A stretch of DNA of 61,651 nt from Candidatus Kuenenia stuttgartensis (GTDB taxonomy: Bacteria > Pseudomonadota > Alphaproteobacteria > SMXS01). The notes beneath the pieces were generated by a model that saw only the letters and a list, made by a program, of their open reading frames with translations, did no database searches and was not told where the DNA came from. The translations under genes and the position numbers were made by a program. The stretch covers positions 1 through 61,651 of the forward strand of contig CALQFM020000016.1 of assembly GCA_943329845.2 (NCBI GenBank), written 5' to 3'. How positions within the stretch are numbered: the stretch's first letter is position 1; the number at the start of each line of letters is the position of its first letter. This document shows, one piece after another, positions 43,386-46,904 of the stretch.

Positions 43386-44152
43386 ACCGGGCCATTGTCG
43401 ACATCGCCGCGCCGCTGGTGCTGATCGCCGTGCTGCTGGCGGGCTGGGAAGCGGCGTGCCGGATCATGTCGATCCCCAGCTATTTCCTGCCGCCGCCGTC
43501 CGAGATCGCCAAGGCTGCGGTCAACAGCGCACCGATCCTGTTCATGTCGGCCTGGAACACGCTGTTCATGGCGCTGAAGGCGCTGGTGGTGGCCAGTGTC
43601 CTTGCGTGCGGCGTGGCGCTGGTCGTCGCGCTGAACCAGACCCTGGAAAAAGCCGTGCAGCCACTCGCCGTGGCGCTGCAGGTAACGCCGGTGATCGCCA
43701 TCGCGCCGCAGGTGGTGATCTGGGCCGGCCTCGCGCATCCGGAACGGGCCATCGTCGCGCTGGCGGTCATCGTCGCGTTCTTCCCGATCTTCTCCGGCGC
43801 CCTGACCGGCTTGAAATCGACGGATCCGGACCTGGAACGGCTGTTCGACCTCTATGGCGCGACCCGCTGGCAACGCCTGCGGCGGCTGCGTATCCCGTCG
43901 TCGATCCCCTTCGTCCTGGAGGGCCACAAGGTTGCCGGCGGCCTGGCGGTGATCGGCGCGGTGGTAGCGGAGTTCGTAGCCGGTTCAGGCGGTGCACAGG
44001 GCCTGGCGTGGCGCATCCTCGAATCGAGCAACCGCCTGCAGACCGCCCGGACCTTCGCGGCGGTGATCGTGCTGGCGATCATGGGCGCGCTGCTGCACGC
44101 GGTGCTGCGCTATGCCGAGCGGGCGATCCTGAAGCGGCTGCGTGGCCGCTAG
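43382..44152 (+). CDS. ABC transporter permease (NitT/TauT type)
   Basis: The 256-residue product has about six membrane spans and the EAA-type coupling loop DLYGATRWQRLRRLRIPSSI near residue 155-175. The periplasm-facing PSYFLPPPSEI motif at the N terminus is typical of SsuC/TauC-like permeases. It completes the importer with the two preceding genes. The 3' end overlaps the convergent unknown gene by 4 bp. Confidence 0.93.
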   Translation: MNRAIVDIAAPLVLIAVLLAGWEAACRIMSIPSYFLPPPSEIAKAAVNSAPILFMSAWNTLFMALKALVVASVLACGVALVVALNQTLEKAVQPLAVALQVTPVIAIAPQVVIWAGLAHPERAIVALAVIVAFFPIFSGALTGLKSTDPDLERLFDLYGATRWQRLRRLRIPSSIPFVLEGHKVAGGLAVIGAVVAEFVAGSGGAQGLAWRILESSNRLQTARTFAAVIVLAIMGALLHAVLRYAERAILKRLRGR

Positions 44153-45063
44153 CTGTTGTCCTGGCCGGGCTTGCGGCGGGTCAGGAAGAAGCCGACCAGG
44201 CCGCCCGCGAGTACGACGCCGACGCCAAGGACGATGACCAGCAGGGTTTTGCTGCTGTCCGCGCCGGTCGTGGCGCCGGCGTCCATGCTGGGCGTGAAGC
44301 CCGGGATAGGAGAGGCCGACGCCGCGGGCGGCGCGACCACGCCGCCATTCGCGCTAACCAGCGCGGCCATGTCCGCCTGCATGTCCGCGACCATGTCGGT
44401 ATAGGTCTCGGTGTTCACATAGGGGCGGTAGATGTTCACCGTCACCACGTAGCCATTGATCAGCGTCATGCCGATGACGCAGGCGATCTGCTCGGGCACG
44501 CCTGCCAGTGTCTGGCTCATCAGCAGGCCGGAATAGATCCCGGCGTCGTCCTTCGCGAGAATCCCCAGGCTCTTGAGCTGGCCCATCTGATACCCGCCCT
44601 GCATCGTTTCGTTGATCCGTTGCTGGATCGAGCCTTTCTGGCCGTCGAGATAGGCCTGCATGTCGGCGCCGGCGGCGGCCTTGCTCATCTCCTCGATGAC
44701 CTGGGCGCGCGTGTAGCCGGCCGCGGACATCACCTGACCGCCAGATAGCGGCAGCAGCACGATGGTCCAGTAGGTGATCGGCTGGGCGATGCCCTGGCGC
44801 ATGCTGGCAAGGACGTTGCAGTCGATGAACAGCGCGAGCAGGTTGTTCGTGCCCACATACATCTTGTTCATGGTGGCGAAATATGCGGCGTCGAACTGGT
44901 TCACCGAAGGCTCGATCACGCACTGGCCGTCCGGTGCTTGCATTTCCATGGTCGTGCCGGGAACGATCTGGATCGTCGCCGCGGACGCGGGCAGCGCCGC
45001 GGCCATCGCAAGGCCGCAGAGCACGCTTCCGGCCCATGACGTGAAGGATCGCGGCTTGCCCAT
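44149..45063 (-). CDS. Unknown secreted protein with C-terminal membrane anchor
   Basis: I do not recognise this 304-residue product. The ATG at 45063 follows a near-perfect AGGAGGTGA, and a GTG nine bases upstream overlaps that site and is unlikely. A signal peptide ends near ALPASAA (residue about 29). The mature part has three Cys (GQCVIEPSV, FIDCNVLAS, QIACVIGMTL) and repeated aromatic patterns (FDAAYFATMNKMYVGTNNLL). It ends with a Pro/Ala/Gly linker, a single span (TLLVIVLGVGVVLAGGLVGF) and a short basic tail (LTRRKPGQDNS). The topology is periplasmic domain with the tail in the cytosol. It stands alone between the ABC operon and ilvD. Confidence 0.75.
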   Translation of the reverse strand: MGKPRSFTSWAGSVLCGLAMAAALPASAATIQIVPGTTMEMQAPDGQCVIEPSVNQFDAAYFATMNKMYVGTNNLLALFIDCNVLASMRQGIAQPITYWTIVLLPLSGGQVMSAAGYTRAQVIEEMSKAAAGADMQAYLDGQKGSIQQRINETMQGGYQMGQLKSLGILAKDDAGIYSGLLMSQTLAGVPEQIACVIGMTLINGYVVTVNIYRPYVNTETYTDMVADMQADMAALVSANGGVVAPPAASASPIPGFTPSMDAGATTGADSSKTLLVIVLGVGVVLAGGLVGFFLTRRKPGQDNS

Positions 45064-45115
45064 GTCATTCACCTCCTGAAACGCCCTGCAGGCAGTGTAA
45101 CACGCAGTCCGCGCG

Positions 45116-46840
45116 TCAGATATCCGCGTAGACGTGGGTTTCGGCCGCAGCGCCCGGATGGGTCACCGCGCCCTTCCAGGCCGGTCCGACGAGCTGGGCA
45201 TACTTCCACAGCGCGCCCGACTGGTATTGGTTGGAGCGTGGCCTCCACGCCTTGCGGCGGGCGTCCAACTCCGTCTCGGACAACTCCACATCGAGCGTCC
45301 CGGCCTCGGCGTCGATATGGATGACGTCACCATCCCGCAGCAGGCCGATCGGACCGCCCAGCGCCGCTTCCGGTCCCACATGGCCGATGCACAGGCCGCG
45401 GGTGCCGCCGGAGAAGCGGCCGTCGGTGACCAGCGCCACCTTGGAGCCCATGTCCTGCCCGACGATGGCGGCGGTGGTCGACAGCATCTCGCGCATCCCC
45501 GGACCGCCTTTCGGCCCCTCATAGCGGATGACGATGACGTCGCCCTCGCCATAGGCCCGGTTCTGCACCGCCTCGAACGCGGCTTCCTCGCCGTCGAAGC
45601 AGCGGGCGCGACCGGTGAATTTCAGGTTCTTCATGCCGGCGACCTTCACGATCGCCCCTTCCGGCGCCAGGTTGCCGGACAACCCAACCACGCCGCCGGT
45701 GGGCGTGATCGGGTTCGTGTAGGGCCGCATCACGTCCTGGCCGTCGTCCCAGCGAACGTCCTCCAGGTTCTCGGCGATGGTCTTGCCGGTGACGGTCATG
45801 CAGTCGCCGTGGATGAAGCCGCCATCGAGCAAGGTTCTCAGCAGCATCTGGATGCCGCCCGCCTCCCACATGTCCTTGGCGACGTATTTGCCGCCGGGCT
45901 TCATGTCGGCCAGGTAAGGCGTGCGCTTGAAGATTTCGGCCACGTCATGCAGCGTGAACTCGATGCCCGCCTCATGGGCGATGGCCGGCAGATGCAGGGC
46001 GCCATTGGTCGAGCCGCCGGTCGCCGCGACGACGACGGCGGCGTTCTCCAGCGATTTCCGCGTGACGATATCGCGCGGCCGGATGTTGCGGGCGAGCAGT
46101 TCCATGACCGCGACGCCGCTGTCATAGGCGAACTGGTCGCGGGATTCATAAGGCGCCGGCGCGCCGGCCGAACCGGGCAGCGCCAGGCCGATCGCTTCCG
46201 ACACGCAGGCCATGGTGTTGGCGGTGAACTGGCCGCCGCACGATCCCTCCGACGGACAGGCGACGCATTCCAGCTTGAACAGCTCCTCATCGGACAGATT
46301 GCCGGCCGAATGCTGGCCGACCGCCTCGAACACGTCGACCACGGTCACGTCGCGGCCGTGGAACTTGCCGGGCAGGATCGAGCCGCCATACATGAACACG
46401 GACGGCACGTTGAGCCGGACCATGGCCATCATCAGGGCCGGCAACGACTTGTCGCAGCCGGCGAAGCCGACCAGCGCGTCATAGCAGTGCCCGCGCATGG
46501 ACAGTTCCACCGAATCGGCGATCAGGTCGCGGCTGGGCAGCGACGAGTACATGCCCGCATGGCCCATGGCGATGCCGTCGGTGACCGTGATGGTGGTGAA
46601 CTCGCGCGGCGTGCCGCCCGCCGACCAGACGCCGTCCTTGGCGACCTTGGCCTGGCGCATCAGCGCCGAGTTACAGGGCGCCGACTCGTTCCAGGTGCTG
46701 ACCACGCCGACCAATGGCTGGTGGATCTGCTCGTCGTTCAGCCCCATCGCGTAGTAATAGGACCGGTGCGGCGCCCGCGTCGGCCCTTCCGTCACATGGC
46801 GGCTGGGCAGCCTGGATTTGTCGAAACGATGCGCGTCCAC
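45116..46840 (-). CDS. ilvD: Dihydroxy-acid dehydratase
   Basis: The GTG at 46840 is preferred because GGGAG precedes it and the family N terminus begins here (VDAHRFDKSRLPSRHVTEGP), giving 574 residues. IlvD dehydrates dihydroxy acids in valine, isoleucine and leucine synthesis using an iron-sulfur cluster. Cluster cysteines are in NESAPCNSAL, VGFAGCDKSLPAL and EGSCGGQFTANTM. The carbamylated-Lys segment and the C-terminal TDGRFSGGTRGLCIGHVGPE are present. The short-chain family member could also act on sugar acids, but the IlvD signature and length favour the amino-acid enzyme. Confidence 0.93.
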   Translation of the reverse strand: MDAHRFDKSRLPSRHVTEGPTRAPHRSYYYAMGLNDEQIHQPLVGVVSTWNESAPCNSALMRQAKVAKDGVWSAGGTPREFTTITVTDGIAMGHAGMYSSLPSRDLIADSVELSMRGHCYDALVGFAGCDKSLPALMMAMVRLNVPSVFMYGGSILPGKFHGRDVTVVDVFEAVGQHSAGNLSDEELFKLECVACPSEGSCGGQFTANTMACVSEAIGLALPGSAGAPAPYESRDQFAYDSGVAVMELLARNIRPRDIVTRKSLENAAVVVAATGGSTNGALHLPAIAHEAGIEFTLHDVAEIFKRTPYLADMKPGGKYVAKDMWEAGGIQMLLRTLLDGGFIHGDCMTVTGKTIAENLEDVRWDDGQDVMRPYTNPITPTGGVVGLSGNLAPEGAIVKVAGMKNLKFTGRARCFDGEEAAFEAVQNRAYGEGDVIVIRYEGPKGGPGMREMLSTTAAIVGQDMGSKVALVTDGRFSGGTRGLCIGHVGPEAALGGPIGLLRDGDVIHIDAEAGTLDVELSETELDARRKAWRPRSNQYQSGALWKYAQLVGPAWKGAVTHPGAAAETHVYADI

Positions 46841-46904
46841 GTCATTCTCCCGCTGTGCCGGCAATGGCGCAGCGTATCACGCGCGGCGTACGAAGTGTGA
46901 TCCG

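Follow-up and report, generated by a model that had tools for sequence, protein, structure and literature searches.

What kind of protein is encoded on the reverse strand at 44149..45063 of the window, the whole stretch of 61,651 nucleotides analysed here? In an earlier note it was described as an unknown secreted protein with a C-terminal membrane anchor, belonging to no family that could be recognised. The questions are thus whether the gene is real, whether its product has relatives, and what the exported part may do at the membrane.

The gene and its product

The open reading frame was confirmed at this place and codes for 304 amino acids, with an ATG start and the stop codon included. It is a real gene under purifying selection, since orthologs (64, 76, 77 and 80% identical to the window protein) occur at the same site in four of six other members of the genus, with a whole-gene dN/dS of 0.25-0.37 against the window gene. 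All five genus copies are located between ilvD and an ABC permease; in the window ilvD (45116..46864, reverse strand; open reading frame listing and NCBIfam) is the upstream neighbour, 52 nt away. At the other end, the stop codons of the gene and of the convergent permease overlap (44149-44152). Not every member of the genus has the gene: one congener (G003) retains ilvD and the importer genes, separated by just 60 nt that hold no gene, and in another (G006, 84% complete) neither ilvD, at E 1e-100, nor an ortholog was found. In a genome of another genus (G007) the same site holds a different secreted-looking open reading frame beginning MGKSRG (L102:3302-4225, reverse strand); fragments of it match ABC-transporter ATPases, and it may be a chimera.

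The start codon is likely the ATG at 45063, because the Shine-Dalgarno sequence AGGAGGTGA (45069..45077, reverse strand) overlaps the alternative upstream GTG at 45072 and places its AGGAGG 8 nt ahead of the ATG. High expression had been proposed from this optimal ribosome site, a weak argument given that AGGAGGTGA, present once in the window, appears at least once in 26 of 100 shuffles and that the four orthologs carry AGGAGGGGA or GGAGGGGA instead. A promoter and terminator scan of 43900-45500 gave none on the strand of the gene.

The layout given in the earlier note was borne out by hydropathy and sequence. It consists, on the reverse strand, of (i) by eye, a signal peptide, residues 1-28 (44980..45063), ending in ASA and without a lipobox; (ii) a periplasmic domain, residues 29-243 (44335..44979), for which models of this protein and a homolog predict a Mog1/PsbP-like fold; (iii) a low-complexity linker, residues 244-272 (44248..44334); (iv) a C-terminal transmembrane span at about residues 273-294 (44182..44247); and (v) a tail, TRRKPGQDNS, residues 295-304 (44152..44181), with a basic RRK and a predicted cytoplasmic location. 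Hydropathy analysis finds a single strong internal span, residues 274-292, with a mean KD of 2.7. Across the orthologs, identity is 67-84% in the domain, 76-85% in the span and tail, and 33-42% in the linker, the fastest-changing part. The three cysteines noted before are present in the mature protein as C48 (44920..44922), C82 (44818..44820) and C195 (44479..44481), a further one, C16, falling within the signal peptide. Family-wide conservation holds for the first two only, as the conservation of C195 does not extend beyond the five genus orthologs (ortholog alignment and the 31-member set described below).

A sparse family with one domain and several tethers

The window protein stayed below every curated cut-off of Pfam-A and NCBIfam; its sub-threshold matches include DUF6750 (18 bits, cut-off 27) and the tail model GVDTG_CTERM (15.1 bits, cut-off 29). 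Seventeen family members scanned jointly gave no coherent family either, with best E values of 0.0029 in Pfam and 0.011 in NCBIfam. The commonest weak matches among these 17 were GVDTG_CTERM (5/17) and LPXTG_anchor, ssl2009 and DUF4148 (3/17 each), at best E values of 0.0099-0.025. A profile of seven rows searched against PDB sequences had a best E of 0.15, to an unrelated entry, and a scan of the genome's contigs with the window protein produced 19 pattern matches, none of them confirmed. The sensitive profile search that the earlier note proposed led to no clear hit to a characterised family in Pfam-A, NCBIfam or PDB sequences.

The protein is nevertheless not isolated. Judging from profile similarity, it belongs to an unnamed, sparse and mainly alphaproteobacterial family. 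Successively broader profiles of 7, 12 and 18 rows matched in 11, 13 and 17 of 385 genomes of the class, and the 18-row profile also matched in 8 of 398 genomes of the phylum, including two that lie outside the class. A scan of named genomes gave four loci, every one in Zavarzinia. In profile-profile comparison, the five genus orthologs were linked to an adjacent gene pair of G271 (probability 98.0), to Zavarzinia (94.8) and to a second Zavarzinia paralog group (77.0, over 81 columns only). The window's own genome holds three copies: the window gene, a soluble copy on contig C15 and an anchored copy on C13. Among the titles and abstract openings listed in literature searches none describes the family, which on that basis appears to be unpublished.

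For further comparison a set of 31 members was assembled, omitting hits in three genomes (G721, G075 and G449) for want of clean open reading frames, and including rows from weak hits (G153, 1.5e-4; G593, 2.1e-4; G264, 5.8e-7; G628, 1.3e-7; and G168, 1.9e-7, where the match spans the first 50 positions). In the family tree the window protein groups with the four orthologs in a single clade (support 100/99); the deep forks are mostly weak, and 10 of 28 inner branches are well supported. Gene neighbourhoods in the wider family, inspected by eye with a crude GC3-based caller of open reading frames, showed no context common to all members. D-glutamate genes lie near two distant members, L059:6071-6763 (G264) and L063:3239-4159 (G079): DgcN near both (NCBIfam), and DgcA in G264 by NCBIfam and in G079 by eye. 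The second paralogs of Zavarzinia marina and of G348 (L061:5684-6607 and L057:5982-6776) are, by eye, divergent from a glcD-like gene.

A cysteine pair 29-35 residues apart is found in all 31 members, although the search profiles include both cysteines and so favour members that have them. Neither varies in the 18-row alignment, and no other residue is invariant in the family; a disulfide between C48 and C82 is probably formed. The means of anchoring varies. A C-terminal span is detected in 16 of the 31 members at a KD threshold of 1.9, and by eye in three more (G101, G272_B and G348_B); the other 12 include soluble forms and the members of G204, G168, G458 and G628. The G204 member is a probable lipoprotein, and that of G168 has an apparent two-domain form. 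The G458 protein (L093:1060-2088), from a genome outside the class, is N-terminally anchored; of the members scanned it alone came close to a Pfam cut-off, that of T2SSM_b (E 0.00027, 21.2 bits, cut-off 21.7), with a match over part of its own domain. The G628 member (L095:1498-2469, reverse strand) carries an extra N-terminal part, which we take to resemble the C-terminal domain of TolA; no TolA/TonB-type match to it was present in Pfam (E up to 0.1) or NCBIfam (E up to 0.001). With 16 members (and three by eye) set against soluble, lipoprotein, N-anchored and fused forms, the C-terminal span is the most frequent of the ways in which this domain is tethered; within the family, at least, the layout that the earlier note called rare in Gram-negative bacteria is common.

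Predicted fold of the periplasmic domain

For AlphaFold2 prediction the window protein was aligned with four Zavarzinia rows, five rows in all. Its model has a mean pLDDT of 64.1, with 60-85 through most of the domain and poor values in the linker and span; over the five runs the mean fell from 64.1 to 31.6. The domain of a Zavarzinia homolog was modelled at pLDDT 89.7 and pTM 0.87 (five runs, 89.7 down to 45.6). Both models have the element order beta-beta-beta-alpha-beta-alpha-beta-alpha-alpha-beta-beta-beta-beta-alpha, and the two domains are about 21% identical; the models are not independent, since each five-row alignment contained the other's sequence.

Structure prediction, also proposed in the earlier note, yielded suggestive matches at mostly low scores. 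In Foldseek the window model is led by PsbP, Mog1, PknH, DcrB and MTC28 (E 0.002-0.02, best 0.0018), with class D beta-lactamases lower in the list, and the Zavarzinia model by PsbP (best E 0.0058); scattered through the latter list are START/PYR-type chains of low probability. For neither model was an E at or below 0.001 obtained, and TM-scores were mostly 0.2-0.4. VIA-align likewise places Mog1/PsbP-like chains first for the window model, with a best Z of 7.6, under the caution line of Z 8 and inside the tool's stated background for models without a clear match. For the Zavarzinia model the best Z is 9.2, 16 chains stand at Z 8 or more, and the top rows are nearly all PsbP or PsbP-like, Mog1, MTC28, DcrB and PknH. 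With VIA-align, Foldseek alone being weak, the overall fold of the homolog model can be classed as Mog1/PsbP-like. The PsbP, Mog1, PknH and LpqN/MTC28 entries presumably form one superfamily. DcrB has been placed in the Mog1/PsbP-like superfamily, as stated in PMC7716261.

The domain could also be some other alpha/beta sandwich, or a fold outside the PDB, the matches then reflecting a common arrangement. The low Foldseek scores and the Z of 7.6 agree with this, as does the Bacteroides protein 3hlz, which ranks level with PsbP in the VIA-align of the Zavarzinia model. However, the same superfamily comes out on top for both domains despite their low identity, and most clearly for the better model. 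Moreover, PMC7716261 links the solved structure of PA1624 to DcrB with a DALI Z of 8.5, a comparable value. Another fold is accordingly unlikely, and the Mog1/PsbP-like fold is the probable one for the domain of the window protein. The earlier label of an unknown secreted protein is thus right at the level of the family, while the domain itself is probably of known fold.

The closest known systems differ from the window protein in anchoring, origin or sequence. The Mycobacterium proteins LpqN and MTC28 (6e5d and 4pws) are likewise exported to the envelope and score similarly in the fold comparison (Z 6.8-8.3), but they come from another phylum, have no sequence match to the window protein and are anchored differently. 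PsbP and its cyanobacterial counterpart (2xb3 and 4rth), among the top Foldseek rows for both models, reach Z 7.5 and 6.8 with the window model and 7.6 and 8.1 with the Zavarzinia homolog; unlike the window protein they are photosystem II subunits, and no sequence match joins them to it. DcrB (PF08786; Salmonella 6e8a, Z 6.8 for the window model and 8.2 for the homolog) is, like the window protein, periplasmic and membrane-anchored. Its anchor, according to PMC7716261, is an N-terminal lipid, whereas the window protein has a C-terminal span and by eye an ASA-AT signal peptide end without a lipobox. PF08786 was absent from the Pfam matches of the 17 members even at a limit of E 1, its profile had no match in the window's genome, and hhalign against DcrB-family proteins gave probabilities of 0.1 and, with the genus profile, 0.25, the DcrB alignment having three rows only. 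PA1624 of Pseudomonas aeruginosa is described in the same paper (PMC7716261) as periplasmic and without a sequence family, as is the window protein, and its N-terminal domain as only distantly Mog1p/PsbP-like; it carries a second, OmpA-like domain.

A possible role at the membrane

Several other destinations and duties were considered for this domain. The tail might be a C-terminal sorting signal, cut by a dedicated protease so that the domain goes to the cell surface. As outlined in PMC3237569, GlyGly-CTERM and PEP-CTERM proteins share the plan of signal peptide, passenger, C-terminal span and basic end, and the window protein fits the tripartite order of motif, span and basic end. The tail models mentioned above matched some members weakly (LPXTG_anchor at a best E of 0.015), and GGGGG precedes the span in one ortholog. 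In contrast to the GlyGly-CTERM and PEP-CTERM proteins, however, the five orthologs have no conserved motif ahead of the span, all sorting-tail models stay below cut-off for the window protein, several Zavarzinia homologs run well past the basic cluster, and neither an exosortase nor a rhombosortase over cut-off was found in the genome. The exosortase model PF09721 had no match there, its control matching in only 1 of 14 cases; two rhombosortase matches (37.5 and 30.1 bits, cut-off 84) look like ordinary rhomboids, since 14 of 14 controls were likewise matched below cut-off. A GVDTG search gave no match but carries no weight, as its control also matched nowhere. A sorting signal is consequently improbable.

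A periplasmic sensor, whose domain binds a ligand while the span signals its state to a cytoplasmic partner, is just as doubtful: the fold matches include PknH, a kinase, through its extracellular domain (Z 6.6 and 8.1), but only about 10 residues follow the span and no kinase or regulator is seen adjacent to the gene in the window listing. The gene might instead encode an accessory part of the adjacent SsuA/TauC-like importer, or be tied through ilvD to branched-chain amino acid synthesis. The constant position of the five genus copies, and the short distance to ilvD on the same strand, speak for such a tie. The importer, however, is encoded on the opposite strand, and the tie is very unlikely in view of the arrangement in G003, which keeps both neighbours without the gene, and of the different neighbours of relatives elsewhere.

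The reading preferred here, with a probability of about one half, is a bitopic inner-membrane protein whose tethered Mog1/PsbP-like periplasmic domain has a non-enzymatic role in binding or assembly. The protein would be exported by the Sec pathway and its leader removed by signal peptidase I, after which the chain would halt at the C-terminal span and RRK as a stop-transfer signal, so that a domain of about 215 residues would hang in the periplasm from a flexible linker. The predicted alpha/beta domain, held by the putative C48-C82 disulfide, may bind an envelope protein or a ligand and retain the bound partner at the membrane surface, in the manner of an assembly factor or an accessory subunit; a comparable role has been proposed for other envelope proteins of the Mog1/PsbP-like kind. 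The evidence is better for topology and fold than for function and partner, which we infer. Non-enzymatic action is the likeliest kind, because the invariance of only two cysteines in the family argues against an enzyme, but this binding or assembly function at the membrane surface is put forward tentatively, with the odds somewhat against it.

For the family as a whole, a reading a little short of even odds is that of an undescribed Mog1/PsbP-like periplasmic family in which the domain is kept while its tether changes freely, with C- or N-terminal spans, lipoproteins, soluble and tandem forms, and fusions to a further part. Such a pattern, with three copies in the window's genome, would point to an envelope module for assembly or retention that serves several clients per cell. 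If this is right, a protein so far without a family is lifted out of the uncharacterised share of alphaproteobacterial genomes, and the superfamily, which counts bacterial envelope proteins among its members, gains a branch not described before, marked by two cysteines and in many cases by C-terminal anchoring. The stake is modest, and the aligned members could seed a model of the new family.
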